The position numbers were made by a program, and so were the translations under genes. A stretch of DNA of 64,000 nt. Source: Candidatus Methanohalarchaeum thermophilum (lineage in GTDB: Archaea > Halobacteriota > Methanonatronarchaeia > Methanonatronarchaeales > Methanonatronarchaeaceae). Below the pieces are notes generated by a model that saw nothing but the letters and a program-made list of their open reading frames with translations, ran no database searches and had not been told where the DNA came from. The stretch is from contig MSDW01000001.1 in the NCBI GenBank assembly GCA_001914405.1, positions 558,001-622,000 on the forward strand, given 5' to 3'. Of the stretch, positions 4,628 to 61,670 are shown piece after piece; position 1 is the stretch's first letter, and the number at the start of each line of letters is the position of its first letter.

Positions 4628-5697
4628 AAGCTGAAAAAAACCATTGTCTGTAAAATAACAGAACCCAACAAAGGCAAACTCAAAGCAATCAAAAAAGAAT
4701 ACAGCAAGGCTCAGAGATATATTCATGGAGAAACGACTGACCTCTATTCTGCAACCAAGCAGGCGATGGACAAATATATCGACATCGAGAAATTGAAAGA
4801 TGGTAAAGATTACCCGTTGTTCTTGAGAAATGACACATTTAGGGTAGAAAAAGCTGAGAACACCAAGGAATTTGGTTACTGGGCTAAGATACCAGTAAGG
4901 GATGTCTATGGTGGTGTTTGGGTTCCAGTGAAACCACATGAAGAGATAAAACTAACATACAACATCAAGGATTCAAAGATTGTTAGAAAGGATTATGTTT
5001 TCGAGTTCCATCTATCAGTTTCCAAGGAAGTGGAGCCTGTTGAAGCATATAAGGGTGTCTTGGGAGTTGATTTGGGTTTGAATAAGCTTGCAACTTGCGT
5101 CAGGTTGCCTAGCCGTCAAACCCAACGCCACAGAACCCACATAGGCGATATACAGAACAAGTACTACTTTCTTAGAAGAAACTGTAAGAACGGCTATGTC
5201 CAAAAGAGATAGGATAACTAGGACAGTGACAAAGTAGAGGATATCTGCCACAAAGTAAGCAGAAAATAGTGGATACAGTGGAAGAGAAGAACTTGTTGAT
5301 AGTCCTTGGTGACCTAAAAGGTATACAAGAATAGGATAAAGATAGAAAAATGAATAGGAAACTCTACAACTTCCCACACTAGAAAATATGAAACTAAATC
5401 AAGTAAAATGCAAAGTGGGAGGGCATAGAGGTTGTATTGGTAAGTGAAGCATACACCAGCCAACGATGTTCTAGGTGTGGTGAGGTTGGCAACAAACACA
5501 AACACAGAGGCAGATTCAGGTGCAATAACTGTGGCCTTGAAACGAATAGGAATAAGAATGGAGCCCACAACATAGCCGTTCGGGGCATCGGAAAGTTTGA
5601 GAAAACCCCTTTTGATGCTAGGGGCCATGTGGCATGGCCCGAAGCCACTGCCGTTGACCCAGCCTCTGGATACTCCTCCTGTAGAGAGACAAGTTAG
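4628..5697 (+). pseudogene. tnpB: tnpB remnant (RNA-guided nuclease family), multiply disrupted
   Basis: The frame begins right after the upstream stop without an ATG, GTG or TTG. It reads as a TnpB up to about 5212, including the RuvC-I segment GVLGVDLGLNKLAT. It is then broken by several stops and at least one frameshift. The middle is still recognisable in other frames (DICHKVSRK, then IVDTVEEKNLLIVLGDLKGI). The zinc ribbon survives at 5437-5697 (CSRCG and CNNCG), but the RuvC-III aspartate region reads ETNRNKNGAHN, with Asn where Asp is expected. Catalytically dead by decay. TnpB proteins are omegaRNA-guided DNA nucleases of IS200/IS605 elements. Confidence 0.85.
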
Positions 5698-5764
5698 CGA
5701 GGTAGGTGGTAACCTCTTGAAGTTGGCCTGAAACTCCGCCCTTTAGGGCGAAGAGGATGTCACT

Positions 5765-6153
5765 TAAACTGTAACCCTTTCCCGTACCTAATCAACTCCA
5801 CATTTTCCGTTTTCCCATACTCATAATGCTCGTAATCAATCTGAACATATCTTACATGGTTGAAAAAAACCCTCTTTAACCCAGCCTCGACACCATTTTT
5901 CTCCACAGTATCACCCCGGTTGCAGGTCATAGTGATCTGTGGGAACGCTCCTGCTTAAACAAGGTAAGTTCCCTAAGCCAACCGACAATTAAACTTCCTC
6001 TATGTGGCCTGGTCGTACCATACGCAAGCCCCTTCTAATCTTTGATTAGGTAGGGGTATTTGACACAGACAATTTTGTGTTTGCATGTTCCTTGGTTAAA
6101 GCAGGACACCCTCTCTTCACTAGCGAAAGGCGAGTAAGGTAGAGGTAGTTCAA
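5765..6153 (+). other. Intergenic element relic with RNA-like hairpins and a small reverse ORF
   Basis: It follows the right end of the preceding IS element. It contains a segment resembling the other gene-less elements (AAGGTAAGTTCCCTAAGCC near 5980, compare GTAAGTTCCCTTGC at 7.0 and 12.7 kb). It also has an internal family hairpin near 6032-6055 and a right end with GGTAGTTCAA at 6144-6153. A 56-codon ORF on the minus strand (5760-5930) is not recognised and is probably a relic or chance ORF. Likely a decayed family member. Confidence 0.5.
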
Positions 6154-6671: not shown

Positions 6672-7158
6672 TCTTTATCTATTTGACTGAGAAGACACCT
6701 TCCTAAATCTTTTGATTTAGGTGGGTGATGAATTGGAGTGATTTTATAGAGTTGGAGGCAGAAGACTCGTGTTCTTCAAGGGGCATGGGATGAATGCCTG
6801 TAATAACATTTGAATGATTTTGGAACTGAGTTAAGCTTTGGCTGTTAGGCGTTCTGCCTTATCAAACAAATGCGGGCCGATTTCTCTGTTTATTGGCTAA
6901 AGAAATCTCCCTAGGTAACCTTGAAACAGTTCTTGGAGTAGGGGGTTCTAGTGGTTGGTGTGGAGCAGCCGCTGAGGAATAGGGGGACCTCTCTATGGGT
7001 TGGTATATGGGCTTTGTGCCCTAATCCAATTCTTCCCTCAAAGCGTAAGTTCCCTTGCTTATTGGGTGTATGAGACAAGCCCAGTAGATAACGTAGACTC
7101 CGACTTGTATAAGGCCTCACAAGGAAGCTCACTCCCTTTAGAGAGTGAGCCACTTCAC
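6672..7158 (+). mobile_element. Gene-less structured element, family 2, copy 1
   Basis: The left end has the leader GACTGAGAAGACACC and an AT-rich hairpin (about 6695-6725). The right end is a GCTCACTC/GAGTGAGC hairpin ending CACTTCAC at 7158. The interior (about 6829-7130) is clearly related to 12443-12750: shared blocks include GGCTAAAGAAATCTCC, GGTAACCTTGAAACAG, GTGGTTGGTGTGGAGCA, GTAAGTTCCCTTGCT and AAGGCCTCACAA. Differences between the copies sit in loops or look paired, and no reading frame is kept. Read as a structured RNA with IS605-like ends. Confidence 0.7.
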
Positions 7159-7541
7159 GGAGTTTTTTGAAGACATTGATAGTAAATGGATGTAGGAAAC
7201 CTTTTTAGTTCCTTTAAGCTGGTGAAAGATGGATCTAGGTCAGATTGATAACAGAATAACCTTTTTGAACGAAAAAAGAGGTATTTTCTGCTAGTAAAGT
7301 TGTTACGGCCGTGCTTAAAATCCATTATTGTTAGCTCTGGCATCTGTCTTCGCAAGCTTGGTTTAAGTAGGTGGTAACCTCTGAGAAAAGGAGATGTTTT
7401 CTCCATTATGGGCTATTCCTGATGGTTTTTCATCTGTTGGCTCCGAAATACCAGATGAATATGGGTGAATTGACGGAACCCCCTTTTCTCTAACCAACGG
7501 TTAGGTAGGTGATTAGGTCAAGTTATCTGCGTAGGAAGTTT
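7159..7541. other. Intergenic relic region between two elements
   Basis: No convincing gene. It contains fragments resembling element right ends, such as AGGTAGGTGGTAACCTCTGA near 7366 (compare the 3' part of the tnpB relic near 5701) and CTAACCAACGGTTAG near 7490. Probably nested insertion debris. Confidence 0.4.
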
Positions 7542-8900
7542 GTGAACTACCTCTTCCTAAATTAAGGATTTAGGAGGGGGTTCCCTGTTCTACCACTTGA
7601 CTTACTGGAGCTGAATTGGTTCCATCAGAGGTCGATGTGTCCGAGGGCTTTGACTTTGGACAGTCCCTGTTTTACCAAGTCTATAGCTCTATTCACTATG
7701 TTTATAGCTGCGTTCAAGTCTCGGTCAATTTCCAGGCCGCATCTCTCACATTTGTGTACTCTATCTGATAGTTCTTTATCTACCTTATTACTATAACTTG
7801 GGTTTGAGCAGCTTTTTGTAGTGTTCCTTGCCTCTACTTCTATGATTTGCTTATCAGCTTGTGAAGCTTTGTAAGCAAGCAATGAAACAAACTCGTTCCA
7901 AGCGTGATTAGCTATATGTCTATTTAGGGCGTTGCTTCTTCCTCTGATAGGTTCTTACTATCTAAGGCTTCTACCGCTATTACATCGTATTTGTCGCTAT
8001 ATGCTCTTGATAGTTTATGTAAGAAGTCTCTTCGTGCATCTCTCAGTTTTTTGTGTGTTTTAGCTAATCTTTTCTTTTGTCTTTTTCAGTTGTTGCTTCC
8101 TTTTTCTTTCCTGGATAGTTTCTTTTGTTCTTTCTTGATTTTCTCGTATTTACTGTATAACAAGTCTTTTAAGTCCTCTATTTCTCTATCTTTACTATCA
8201 GTTAAGAAGTTGGATACGTTTAGGTCTATTCCTATTATGTCGCTGTCTTTTGTGATTGGTTTTTTGTCGGGTTTTGGAACTTTTAGTTGGAGTATGATTT
8301 TCGAGTCACCGCAACTGTATTCTTTTATTATAACTCCTTTGACCTCAGCGTTTTTAGGGATTGGTCTGTGGAAGTTTACGGGTATTTTTCCTTATCTTTG
8401 ATAGATGTATATTTCTTTTTTCTTGGTCTATTTTGAATCCTGACTGATTGTATTCAATGATATTAATCGAGTTCTTGTACCTTAACTTTCTAACCTTTTT
8501 TTCCTTTCTCTTTTTTTGTGTTTAGGCCTTTGATTGCGTTGTATATTCTTCCTATTGTTTGTTGAGCAGTCTTTGAATATACATTTTGGAACTCTGGGTT
8601 TGATGTCTTTTTCCACTCTGGTAACCTATTATACATCTTATACTTTTGGTATTTACTCATCTGATTTGTTTAATGTTTCTAGTGCCTTATTGTAAATGTC
8701 TTTGTGTATCTTGAAGTGCTTCATCAGTTCTTCCTTATCTTCCTTTGTTGGATTGGCATCGTATCTGTATGAAAGCGACTGTAAGCCCATCTTAAACCTA
8801 TTTATAGGTTCGTGGTTTAAAAGTATTGTAGGGGGTTGATGCATCTCGCTACTAAAATCAGAGATTTTGGAGAGAGGTCTTCTCAACTACTAAGATAAAA
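7542..8900 (-). mobile_element. IS1341-type element with decayed tnpB (minus strand)
   Basis: Read on the minus strand, the left end at about 8845-8900 has the leader TTTTATCTTAGTAGTTGAGA, the trailing GACC and an AT-rich hairpin. The right end at about 7542-7583 is a CCTAAATCCTTAATTTAGG hairpin followed by AAGAGGTAGTTCAC. The whole length between the ends is taken by a tnpB pseudogene. No tnpA. The ends match those of the solo hairpins and gene-less elements. Confidence 0.75.
7625..8790 (-). pseudogene. tnpB: tnpB pseudogene, full length but frameshifted
   Basis: The start is ATG at 8790 (MGLQSLSYRYDANPTKEDKE). Successive fragments in several frames reconstruct a complete TnpB. These are an N-terminal helical part, a RuvC-I region (IIGIDLNVSNFL), a RuvC-II region (VIAVEALDSKNL, with Glu in the expected place) and a zinc ribbon/RuvC-III part in 7625-7882 (CERCGLEIDRDLNAAINI). 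Stops and frameshifts occur near 8660, 8400, 8087 and 7930-7690. Unlike the intact copy at 13.3 kb it keeps the RuvC-II glutamate and the RuvC-III Asp, so it decayed by frameshift rather than active-site loss. Confidence 0.85.
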
Positions 8901-8986
8901 TTGATGTAATCCGTAATATCTAATTGGGTTTGGGTTGTTAATATTATGTGTAGGGTTATCTCTTTAAGTGAGGTAGTAGGAAAGAA

Positions 8987-12351: not shown

Positions 12352-12792
12352 TTTTATCTTGGTGGTTGAGAAGACCTCTCTCCAAAATCTCTGATTTTGG
12401 TAGAAGGATGAATCAACCACAAATTTCCAATGGTTCTAAGACCAGTTAAGTTTTGGCTGTTAGGTGTTCTGGCTTGAACAGATTACGAGGCCCCTTTGGA
12501 TTGTTTCATTTGGCTAAAGAAATCTCCTCAGGTAACCTTGAAACAGATCTGGAGTAGGGGTCCTAGGTGGTTGGTGTGGAGCAACCATTGAGGAATAAGA
12601 GTAGCCATTGTGTAGCTATGTAGCTAATATATGGGCTCTTGTATCTGCCCTAATCCAGTTTTCCTCAAACCGTAAGTTCCCTTGCTGACTGGGTCTATGA
12701 GACAAACACACTGAACAAGGCAACTCCACTCTGGATAAGGCCTCACAAAGAACCCCCTCCAAAATCCCTTGATTTAGATAGAGGTAGTTGAC
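12352..12792 (+). mobile_element. Gene-less structured element, family 2, copy 2
   Basis: The leader TTTTATCTTGGTGGTTGAGA and a hairpin at about 12375-12405 mark the left end. A CCAAAATCCCTTGATTTAG-type hairpin and GAGGTAGTTGAC at 12792 mark the right end. The interior shares many blocks in order with 6829-7130, with a variable GGGC/GCCC-closed hairpin of different length in the middle. There are no ORFs of note. A GTGAAGTGACC segment with spacer at 12309-12351 precedes it and may be part of a compound unit. Confidence 0.7.
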
Positions 12793-13161
12793 TATTGGCA
12801 GAAGAGATTTTTGTGTGGTAGGAAGGAGGTAAAAGGTGTTAATAAACTCTTTTAAGGTGAATCTATGTTTTTTTAGGGGGGAGAATGGTTCACAACCTAT
12901 TTTGTTGGGGGAAATAACTATGTGGAATAAGAATAATATGATTAAAAGGTGATTGGTTAGGTATCTCTGAGATAGTTGATTTTTGATTCTATAGGTTTTT
13001 CAGAGATATTTGCTAAAAGGTTTAGGGGATGTTTTTTCTTTGAAATCTATTTAACTTTTTTTTGGTGAGAAATCCCTGTCCTTAATCTTTGATTTAGGTT
13101 AGGGATGAATCACCACAAGATGTATATAAGTAGTTAAATAATGTTTATATAGGAGATATAT

Positions 13162-13302
13162 ATGGAAGACCCGACAACCATACAGATAGAAAAAGAAACA
13201 CGGAAGAAACTCAAGGAACTAAGGATAACAAAGAGAGAAACATACGACGAAATATTAAATAGGTTGATGAAAAATGCAACTAACTCAAAAAATAAAGATT
13301 GA
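13162..13302 (+). CDS. Small ribbon-helix-helix-like protein overlapping tnpB
   Basis: A 46-residue ORF: a strand-like start (TTIQIEKETRKKLKELR) and a helix-turn-helix continuation (TKRETYDEILNRLMKN). This matches the pattern of small ribbon-helix-helix repressors (strand, helix, turn with T/S, helix). A good ribosome site (AGGAGATATAT) sits just upstream. Its end overlaps the tnpB start by 29 bases in another frame, so the two are likely translationally coupled. A comparable small ORF precedes the broken tnpB at 4.5 kb. Likely a DNA-binding regulator of the element (inference). Confidence 0.65.
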   Translation: MEDPTTIQIEKETRKKLKELRITKRETYDEILNRLMKNATNSKNKD

Positions 13303-14554
13303 GCCAACAGAAGAACAAGAAGAAGTTCTTACTTCTCTTTCTGAAATATGTAGGTTGCTCTATAATTTTTCACTCAAAGAAAGAATAGAGAACTGGAAAG
13401 AAAACAAGAACAAACCAAAAGAAGAAAGAAACTACATTACATACACAGACCAACAAAATAAGTTACCCAAATTAAAAGAAGAATACCCAAAATACAACTG
13501 GGTGTATTTAAAAGTCTTACAAATGATTTTAAAGAAACTGGACGCCAATTACAAGTCCTTCTTCTCTCTATGGAAAAAAGGAGACAATAAAGCGAAACCA
13601 CCAAGATTCAAAGGCAGTAAATACTTCACAAACCTATGCTATAACCAATCCGGGTTCAAAATAAAAAAAGAGGAAATAAAATTTTCTCACAACCACCCAG
13701 ACAAAACAGAACTATCTTTTGATATTCCAACCAAGTTTCATTTAGAAGATAAGAACATTAAACAAATCGAAATCTTCAGAGACGAAATTAAAGAAGAATA
13801 CTATATCTCAATATCTTACGAGGTAGATACTCCAAAATACAAAGATAACGGAAAGTATCAAGCTTTCGATTTAGGAGTTAACAAACACATAGGAGTTAAT
13901 ATGAGTGGGAAGTTCGTTGAGTTCAAGAACCCAAGACCAGACAAGTATTGGCAATCGAAAATAGAAGAAGTTCAATCAAAAAAAGACAGATGTAAAAAAG
14001 GAAGTAATAGATGGAAATGGTATAACAAGAAATTACAACAGATGAAAAGAAAACTTGCTAATCAAATGAAGGATTGGCAACATAAATTAAGTAAAAAAAT
14101 AGTTGAGAACACTAAAGCGAATACTATAGTAGTTGGAGATTTAGATACTAAAGATATGGCACAGAACAACAAGAATGTAGAGGGCTTGAACAGGAGTTTA
14201 CAAAACACAGGCACCATAGGTAGATTCGTTAGATTTCTAATCTACAAGGCAGAACTTGTAGGTAAGAAGGTAATAGAAATCAACGAAGCAAACACTACCA
14301 AAAAGTGCTGTGTCTGTGGAAAGAAACAGGATATGCCATTACATAAAAGAACTTATAAATGTGATTGTGGAAACGAAATTGACAGAGACAAAAACTCTGC
14401 TATCAATATAATGAATCGTTTCCTATCACAAGAACGCTCTGTGAACGAGCAATCTTCCTTTATGGAAGATTTTCTGCGACAAACAGGTTTGGAATACGCC
14501 AACCAGCAAATGTCCAAACACTCGCAGGAAACCCCTTCCTCACGAACAACGTGA
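13274..14554 (+). CDS. tnpB: TnpB, RNA-guided nuclease of an IS1341-type element
   Basis: A 426-residue protein, full length for the family. The N-terminus (MQLTQKIKIEPTEEQEEVL) is a typical TnpB start. RuvC-I is QAFDLGVNKHIGVN (Asp near residue 199). The RuvC-II region is TIVVGDLDTKDM, where the usual catalytic Glu is Gly. The zinc ribbon has CCVCGKK and YKCDCG, directly followed by RuvC-III NEIDRDKNSAINI (Asp). Some TnpB clades keep the second acidic residue at a displaced site, so this copy may be active with a rearranged site, or nuclease-dead. The 3' end overlaps the right-end hairpin, consistent with omegaRNA processing from the tnpB transcript. Confidence 0.93.
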   Translation: MQLTQKIKIEPTEEQEEVLTSLSEICRLLYNFSLKERIENWKENKNKPKEERNYITYTDQQNKLPKLKEEYPKYNWVYLKVLQMILKKLDANYKSFFSLWKKGDNKAKPPRFKGSKYFTNLCYNQSGFKIKKEEIKFSHNHPDKTELSFDIPTKFHLEDKNIKQIEIFRDEIKEEYYISISYEVDTPKYKDNGKYQAFDLGVNKHIGVNMSGKFVEFKNPRPDKYWQSKIEEVQSKKDRCKKGSNRWKWYNKKLQQMKRKLANQMKDWQHKLSKKIVENTKANTIVVGDLDTKDMAQNNKNVEGLNRSLQNTGTIGRFVRFLIYKAELVGKKVIEINEANTTKKCCVCGKKQDMPLHKRTYKCDCGNEIDRDKNSAINIMNRFLSQERSVNEQSSFMEDFLRQTGLEYANQQMSKHSQETPSSRTT

Positions 14555-19527: not shown

Positions 19528-20035
19528 GTGAAGTGGCTCTTACTTTACTCATGTTTATTTGTGGGCCGTAGGTTTTCCGATGTATCCTACTTATCTTGAG
19601 AGGAGTTTTACTTTTATATTAGGGGCTTCTTTTTCAGCACCCTAAAGTCAACATCGGAGAACTATTTTCTTCCTGAGAGAAGACTTAGATCTAGGCGCAA
19701 AGTAAAATATCTATAGTATTTACTATAGATATAAGTGAGGCGGAGAACCCTTTAGCTTTGCCGTTGGGGTGAATACCATAACTTTTATGTTGTGGGAGTG
19801 ACGGCTTTGTATAACTCCTAAAGGAACTCTCCTTTGGGTGATTGGTCTCTGTCTGTACTGTTTCCCAAGAACCTTTAACTCTTTTAGGGGGGAGTTGAGG
19901 GTGACCGGTAGCGGGTTTCTGTGAACGGGCCGACCCTCAGTCCTTGTACACCGCTTGAGGGTATTATACTGGGGTGTGCAGGAGGTTTTAATTAATCTTT
20001 GGGAACCTCCTTGGCTCTGCCGAGAGGTAGTTCAC
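19528..20035 (+). mobile_element. 508-bp gene-less structured element, family 3
   Basis: It starts with GTGAAGTGG and ends with GAGAGGTAGTTCAC, matching family ends. It is dense in potential stems. One is a perfect 12-bp hairpin at 19707-19732 (ATATCTATAGTA / TACTATAGATAT). Others are a CCATAAC/GTTGTGG hairpin near 19788-19806, a long-range pairing of CCGATGT (~19577) with ACATCGG (~19652), and a GGAGGTT/AACCTCC stem near 19981-20010. G+C is higher than in its surroundings. No ORF is supported. Likely a structured non-coding RNA between purE and an aminotransferase gene. Confidence 0.6.
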
Positions 20036-23504: not shown

Positions 23505-23939
23505 TGCCTCTAAAATTTACTTCTCAAAAAATTTAAGTTTTCTCCTCTTATCTTAAGGATCAAATATGGTTCTATTTCTAGGGACAAGGATACATTAAAC
23601 CGAAACATTTTAATGGTTAAAGTATTGATTTATGACTAAAAGACAGTTAGTTGGCTTGTCTACCTTCTATATGCTATAAGTCAATCCTAATCCTCAAGAA
23701 AGGTAGCTAAATATACTGGAACCCAATATTAAGAGATGGTTAGGAGAGGTCTCAGGGTTCTGTAGGAAAAGGGTATTACTAGCATAGAATATATCTACCA
23801 TGGTGAATAAAAGGAACCATAATGAGTTAATAGGTATATCTGTATAGGGCTGCTCTAATCTAAAACTGCTTACGGAACGAAATGTTCCGGTATTAGATTG
23901 GTTTTATAAAAAATTGGAATGGAAAACTAAGTGGTGTTA
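23505..23939. other. Intergenic region without a recognised gene
   Basis: AT-rich, with no ORF that I believe. An inverted repeat-like CTTACGGAACGAAATGTTCCG segment (near 23869) could form a hairpin. Nothing else stands out. Confidence 0.4.
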
Positions 23940-56883: not shown

Positions 56884-57249
56884 ATGGTGGATGAGGAGAA
56901 AGTAAAAAAACTGCTGAGCAAGCTAAAGTACATGTACTATAAAACCGAATTAGATGGACGAGAAGTTGAGTTTGAGGAGTTTTTAGAAGGTTTAAGTGAA
57001 GGAGAAAGTTTTAAAGGAGTTATACATACTGAAACTGAAGTTAAAGAAAATAACAAAATAAGAGATGGCTATATTCTTATTGATGAAGGAGAGATTAAAC
57101 TCGTTATTTTTATGGGAAAAGATATTTATTATGGTTCTGAAGCATTAGATATGATAAAAAATCCTGATAAAATAAATTACACTCGTCTAAAGGAAAGCAA
57201 GAAAGAAGAAATTCTTAAAAAAGCCAGAGATGCTGGCATTCTTTTCTAA
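56884..57249 (+). CDS. Hypothetical protein, 121 residues (possible DUF2226-like)
   Basis: A 121-residue, acidic protein. The middle SFKGVIHTETEVKENNKIRD and DGYILIDEGEIKLVIFMGKD resembles the beta-rich domain of DUF2226-type archaeal proteins, which I cannot confirm. It begins two bases after the preceding stop codon, so it is coupled. The last codons lie within the 63-bp tandem repeat. Confidence 0.55.
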   Translation: MVDEEKVKKLLSKLKYMYYKTELDGREVEFEEFLEGLSEGESFKGVIHTETEVKENNKIRDGYILIDEGEIKLVIFMGKDIYYGSEALDMIKNPDKINYTRLKESKKEEILKKARDAGILF

Positions 57250-57358
57250 TTGAAGGGCTTATCTATCAAAGATTCTTTTTTTTATATGGACATATCTGGC
57301 ATTCTTTTCTAATTGAAGGTATTATTTATCAAGGATTCTTATTTTTATATGGACCTAT
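57233..57358 (+). repeat. 63-bp tandem duplication covering gene end and TFB leader
   Basis: Two head-to-tail copies of a 63-bp unit starting CTGGCATTCTTTTCTAATTG (57233 and 57296). Copy 1 includes the last codons of the upstream hypothetical gene; copy 2 ends at the TFB start codon. Each copy carries a TTTTTTATATGG-like stretch. The TATA of copy 1 is placed for a leader of about 45 bases. Confidence 0.75.
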
Positions 57359-61213: not shown

Positions 61214-61257
61214 AAAACACATTTTCTTTATTTTATTTTATTTTATTTCTTTGTTTT

Positions 61258-61670
<413 letters not shown>

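Follow-up and report, generated by a model that had tools for sequence, protein, structure and literature searches.

Elements of the IS605 type transpose in the form of single-stranded DNA and have ends that are hairpins, and insertion at a fixed motif without duplication of the target is a signature of IS200/IS605 elements. The TnpB protein is thought to prevent the loss of IS605-type elements. A comparable RNA, HEARO, is the omegaRNA of IscB, lies upstream of its ORF and includes copies that have no ORF. In ISDra2 and its relatives, the scaffold of the TnpB omegaRNA (also called reRNA) adjoins the 3′ end of tnpB or overlaps it, and the flank of the element serves as the guide (PMC8612924, PMC10278001). 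Archaea express circular omegaRNAs (PMC12558985), and palindrome-associated transposable elements (PATEs) have been described in Haloquadratum (PMC3119063).

The elements analysed here resemble the PATEs in being protein-less, having palindromes near their ends, lacking target duplications, being present in many copies and being putatively mobilised by an IS605-type TnpA. However, the description of PATEs was based on their ends, and the passages of PMC3119063 used here report no conserved covarying RNA inside them, whereas RNA dominates the elements considered here. As in TnpB omegaRNAs, the RNA ends at the right end of the element, and the element adjoins a short motif, in this case TTTAT. 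Unlike those RNAs, more than 90% of the copies lie in elements that lack tnpB, and the scaffold is separated from the right end by an extra 3′ domain, about 90 nt long. HEARO is likewise a mobile structured RNA found with and without a nuclease ORF, but the present RNA lies downstream of tnpB or overlaps it, and has no match in Rfam. While TnpB omegaRNAs and protein-less IS605 derivatives (PATEs, PMC3119063) are thus already known, our incomplete search of the literature found no description of omegaRNA-only elements that selection maintains in such numbers.

Two protein-less elements with IS605-type borders

We analysed a stretch of 64,000 nucleotides (the window), corresponding to C1:558001-622000 of a 2.14-Mb genome. 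The host is a methanogen, since its genome contains mcrA, and it probably falls near Methanonatronarchaeia. Loci with L numbers are stretches taken around matches. The window contains the two elements in question, which we call copies A and B:

6743..6747, + strand: TTTAT, target and putative TAM, abutting the left end of copy A
6748..7158, + strand: copy A, protein-less IS605-type element with RNA (411 bp; tnpA and tnpB absent)
6912..7127, + strand: RNA core of copy A, omegaRNA-like scaffold plus extra 3′ domain (covariance model R1)
7128..7158, + strand: right-end hairpin of copy A (CTCACTCCC-GGGAGTGAG) and terminal CACTTCAC
12353..12357, + strand: TTTAT, target and putative TAM, before copy B
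12358..12792, + strand: copy B, protein-less IS605-type element with RNA (435 bp; tnpA and tnpB absent)
12529..12753, + strand: RNA core of copy B (covariance model R1)
12754..12792, + strand: right-end hairpin of copy B and terminal TAGTTGAC
6679..6747, + strand: left end of a different IS605-type element, abutting TTTAT, not part of copy A
7534..8901, − strand: decayed tnpB element, both ends matching copy B

These borders revise those in an earlier note on this DNA, which had started copy A at 6672 and given lengths of 441-487 bp; copy A is 411 bp rather than 487, and copy B 435 bp rather than 441. Six near-identical sisters (83-93% identity to copy A) group with it, and they start at the TTAT that precedes copy A, so a start at 6672 would add the left end of a neighbouring element. 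Indeed, 6679-6747 is missing from these sisters (L002-L007), and its left-end type is that of the intact TnpB element L121 and of the RNA elements L012 and L020. The earlier note had also assigned both copies the ends of the tnpB elements. This applies to copy B, which shares its left-end and right-end hairpins with tnpB elements and whose left end is 90% identical over 67 nt to that of the decayed element at 8901-7534. It does not apply to copy A, which has its own left-end sequence and right-end hairpin, yet has identical borders, with TTTAT before its left end and TTCAC at its right end.

In all 30 of the loci listed, TTAT (mostly TTTAT) precedes the left end; for copy A's own locus (L001), the automatic left-end match is the neighbouring end at 6679, and copy A itself is also preceded by TTTAT. 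Right ends close with TTCAC or near variants (TTCAC/TTGAC in A and B), and the 20 bases 3′ of the right end differ in every copy listed. No unoccupied copy of the element adjoining copy A was found within the window, but an exact empty site could be reconstructed at L047, where an element copy is inserted antisense within a tnpB gene. When this copy was excised in silico and the flanks were joined at TTTAT/GAGG, the tnpB frame was reopened and aligned to its paralogues. In this empty site, TTTAT belongs to the flank and there is no target duplication, which confirms the boundaries of the family. As expected of PATEs and IS200/IS605 elements, the copies have subterminal palindromes, lack inverted repeats and insert at a fixed motif without duplicating the target, and they contain no transposase gene, for which 411 and 435 bp would be too short.

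The rest of the element that starts with 6679-6747 is probably represented by 7159-7520, which has a distinct structured-looking interior and a right-end-like hairpin near 7476-7518; no further copy of this interior was found in the window. A second class of protein-less elements with IS605 ends, with a G+C-richer interior of about 300 nt, occurs at 2471-2884 and 61257-61670 of the window, and the genome contains 14 copies at 95-100% identity and 10 diverged ones. This interior has no match to the tnpB 3′ ends of the tested loci. The window also contains two tandem 63-bp copies, 90% identical, at 57233-57358.

A large family found mostly without tnpB

The two elements had been presented as a pair, but the family to which they belong has about 140 copies. 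A BLAST search of the host's own genome with copy A gave at least 49 matches (40 of the 221 first-look candidates were scored), and covariance model R1, built on the 217-nt RNA core, detected 148 in the 2.14-Mb genome, with E<1e-9 for about 140. Such numbers are far beyond chance. The cores of copies A and B, both of which are among the model-building sequences, score 215.9 and 204.7 bits. A TnpB zinc ribbon lies at most 700 nt upstream on the same strand of 8 of the 148 matches, and the other 140 have none. Two further matches in the window are diverged:

19578..19690, − strand: diverged partial RNA copy (R1 E=1.3e-4; nhmmer 2e-7)
23741..23920, + strand: possible RNA copy, very diverged and weak (R1 E=0.005)

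Another genome of the order, from a second genus, has nine covariance-model matches. A phylum-wide covariance search with stricter filters was positive for 2 of 295 genomes, both belonging to the same family. The element had no match in a search of plasmid DNA, nor in viral contigs searched with a strict pattern. The whole genome contains 89 TnpB zinc-ribbon matches, many of them fragmentary, and 24 Y1 transposase matches, some with ORFs uninterrupted by stop codons. The IS605 load of this genome (89 TnpB zinc ribbons, 24 Y1 matches and about 140 RNA elements per 2.14 Mb) is therefore extreme.

A covarying RNA structure

The interiors of copies A and B had been described as sharing conserved blocks in a fixed order, interrupted by variable stems; our alignment bears this out and shows the interiors to be homologous. 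Covariation had been named as the check on a structured RNA, and it is strong. Among 27 sequences (26 of them tnpB-less), 93.5% of cells in six named helices are paired, with 42 compensated (double-change) cells, compared to 14.5 +/- 2.9 when shuffled. With 100 distinct sequences and a long-range helix added, there are 299 compensated cells, compared to 108.9 +/- 10.5 when shuffled, and at most 87 in a control in which partners were slid by 1-3 columns; the alignment is model-fitted for all helices except the long-range one, which lies outside the model. For the long-range helix alone, an earlier test in which its 3′ side was badly anchored gave a weak signal (30 of 2000 shuffles), and a test allowing for offset found that 1 of 5000 shuffles was as good. 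Between the scaffold and the right end, the tnpB-less RNAs have the extra 3′ domain, which is about 90 nt long (GUUCCC.../...GGGAA around two hairpins).

RNAalifold applied to the raw MAFFT alignment gave plausible helices mixed with right-end artefacts, so we counted a smaller, hand-checked structure instead. Minimum-free-energy folding of single sequences gave no significant signal (z = -1.5 and -1.6), and is therefore left out of our argument.

Neither the whole window nor the RNA core has an Rfam match at the gathering score. We rejected the possibility of a known Rfam family, as the only candidate is HgcC, sub-threshold and outside the core. HEARO, the IscB omegaRNA, is ruled out, since the linked ORFs encode TnpB and the RNA lies 3′ of the ORF. 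A group I intron (IStron) has no support from Rfam, and the RNA is on the wrong side of tnpB for one.

HgcC (RF00062) is an archaeal RNA family of unknown function. Its sub-threshold matches are found at the following places:

window 5620-5776; L069-L076: sub-threshold HgcC (RF00062) matches

Of the eight matches in the genome, seven follow a TnpB zinc ribbon on the same strand at a distance of 46-170 nt. Given this position directly behind TnpB zinc ribbons, HgcC looks like the 3′ part of another omegaRNA, one distinct from the present RNA, whose core contains no HgcC matches.

Linkage to tnpB and tnpA

Homologues of the RNA occupy the omegaRNA position, downstream of tnpB or overlapping its 3′ end, at L040, L114, L117-L121 and L122:1513-1681. 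The element at L040 runs from its left end through tnpA, tnpB and the full RNA to its right end, with the RNA beginning 49 nt after the tnpB stop codon (covariance model E=2e-54). Among the tnpB-linked copies, only this one contains both RNA domains in full, and the tnpA of L040 has stop codons. At L117-L121, as well as at L114 in the second genus, the 3′ end of the tnpB coding sequence and the 5′ domain of the RNA overlap; the covariance E-values at the intact TnpB of L121 and at L117-L120 and L114 range from 1e-14 to 4e-9.

The left end of L121 consists of TTAT followed by CTATTTGACTGAGAAGACACC, and its 3′ end reads GGGTAAGCCTGAAACTTCGGGAGTAGGG...GGAGAATAAGG...CTTCTCC, followed by the right-end hairpin and by TAGTTCAC. 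The GGGTAAGCCTGAAACTTCGGGAGTAGGG portion is nearly identical to tnpB-less copies such as L025. The L121 RNA has the 5′ domain and lacks the 3′ domain that the tnpB-less RNAs have in addition. The tnpB-less copies are homologues of the tnpB-linked RNAs, and are not themselves at tnpB 3′ ends. They have the conserved secondary structure that characterises omegaRNA families, and the scaffold extends to the right end, judging by the geometry of core, right-end hairpin, TTCAC and unique flank. A putative guide would begin at position 7159 for copy A and at 12793 for copy B.

The earlier suggestion of an omegaRNA-like RNA is thus supported, both by the scaffold that follows tnpA and tnpB at L040 and by its overlap with the coding end of an intact tnpB. 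The alternative offered with it, a new RNA class, gives way, since the position of the scaffold at tnpB 3′ ends makes the RNA omegaRNA-related and not wholly new, although the tnpB-less form has an extra 3′ domain. No promoter was assigned to the RNA in a test of bacterial promoters only, the host being archaeal.

The window contains a TnpB gene of its own:

13274..14554, + strand: TnpB gene, 426 aa, IS1341-like, without tnpA (PF07282, PF01385, PF12323; guided_TnpB)

The element of this gene is of the IS605 type, with its right end reaching to about 14574. NCBIfam assigns this protein and the TnpBs of L121 and L040 to the RNA-guided endonuclease TnpB family, and a PDB search with L121 returned a single weak TnpB-like chain. 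Intact Y1 transposase ORFs coexist with the intact TnpB ORF in the same genome. The usual RuvC-II glutamate position reads Gly in L121 (VFCGDG). Gly-Asp is found there in all three proteins, namely L121:323-1681, the window gene at 13274-14554 and L040 (VVGDL, AIGDL for the latter two), and in each of them a Glu lies close to the zinc ribbon (VDES, INEA, VDER). From these residues, the three TnpBs possibly have a rearranged active site.

Selection on copies without tnpB

The RNA structure is under selection in the tnpB-less copies. We compared 28 disjoint pairs of close tnpB-less copies, counting each pair in both directions. Changed base pairs were still standard in 65.5% of cases, compared to 43.5 +/- 1.8% expected when the same substitutions are permuted, and compensatory doubles numbered 24, compared to 6.4 +/- 2.4 expected; gene conversion between copies could transfer both sides of a pair together, and the alignment is model-fitted except for the long-range helix. 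None of 1000 permutations reached either observed value.

In a tree of the copies, those linked to tnpB occur in two places only, so most of the divergence arose without tnpB. The tnpB-less copies of the second genus interleave at five places among the rest, which implies that lineages without tnpB either have existed for long or have passed from one lineage to another.

Alternative explanations

The copies could be passive passengers, that is, PATE- or MITE-like deletion derivatives in which the omegaRNA was merely spared and whose covariation arose in autonomous lineages. Protein-less deletion derivatives of IS605-type elements are known in haloarchaea (PATEs, PMC3119063), some copies are visibly decayed (e.g. 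L007), and the long-range helix is partly broken in some subfamilies. However, the 83 tnpB-less copies of the host's own genome span the diversity of the tree while tnpB-linked copies do not, recent changes between tnpB-less sisters preserve pairing, matches are nearly all full length, and the second genus has tnpB-less copies with an identical joint between left end and core. We therefore consider this explanation unlikely. We give even less credence to the idea that the tnpB-less RNAs, instead of serving as working guides, regulate TnpB, act as its decoys or represent an RNA adopted by the host, with a function altered by the extra 3′ domain. Consistent with this idea, that domain is missing from the RNA of the intact TnpB gene, and a decoy function was proposed for circular omegaRNAs in archaea (PMC12558985). 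On the other hand, every copy retains a junction of right end and flank that would supply a distinct guide, and the long form is found also behind one tnpA-tnpB pair.

It is most improbable that selection acts on the structure in single-stranded DNA, for folding, excision or circle protection in TnpA transposition, and not in RNA. Although there are many conserved hairpins between the element ends, as this would predict, the core is homologous to RNA at or over tnpB 3′ ends, i.e. the place of an omegaRNA. Moreover, many of the preserved pairs are G-U, which is weak in DNA, and hairpin-end recognition in IS608 and ISDra2 needs neither conserved loop blocks nor a long-range helix.

Discussion

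The explanation we favour, and consider probable, is that copies A and B are omegaRNA-only, non-autonomous (PATE-like) IS200/IS605 elements that are mobilised by TnpA and probably load TnpB in trans. The protein genes have been lost and the RNA kept, so each copy probably borrows proteins encoded elsewhere in the genome. We infer transcription, TnpB binding, cleavage and mobilisation in trans as follows. A Y1 TnpA from elsewhere would peel the element out and paste it as single-stranded DNA. The transcript would read through the right end into the flank, such that its last bases form an insertion-specific guide. TnpB supplied in trans would bind the scaffold and cut the TTTAT-flanked empty site left by excision, and repair from a copy still holding the element would restore it. 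In this way, about 140 protein-less copies could persist by means of shared proteins. The following observations count against this explanation: the RNA of the L121 TnpB has no extra 3′ domain, the tnpA of L040 has stop codons, the test of bacterial promoters assigned none to the RNA, and L121 has Gly at the usual RuvC-II glutamate position.

A further-reaching hypothesis, which we put forward tentatively and hold with less than even confidence, is that these are long-lived, TnpB-dependent transposons consisting only of a guide RNA, in which about 140 separately inserted, trans-acting omegaRNAs, with a maintained structure and an extra domain of their own, share a few TnpBs.

It is natural to ask whether TnpB guide RNAs serve tnpB-less elements in trans. 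In the present family, the RNA is more numerous than its nuclease genes, diversifies without them in two genera and shows compensatory changes, so trans use can be tested directly. In addition, an archaeal omegaRNA is now represented by a deep alignment of about 100 natural sequences, and the orphan Rfam family HgcC has a likely explanation. If the further-reaching hypothesis is true, the RNA, and not the nuclease gene, would be the unit that spreads and is selected, and the approximately 140 copies would constitute a genome-wide set of guides, possibly extending to guides adopted by the host.
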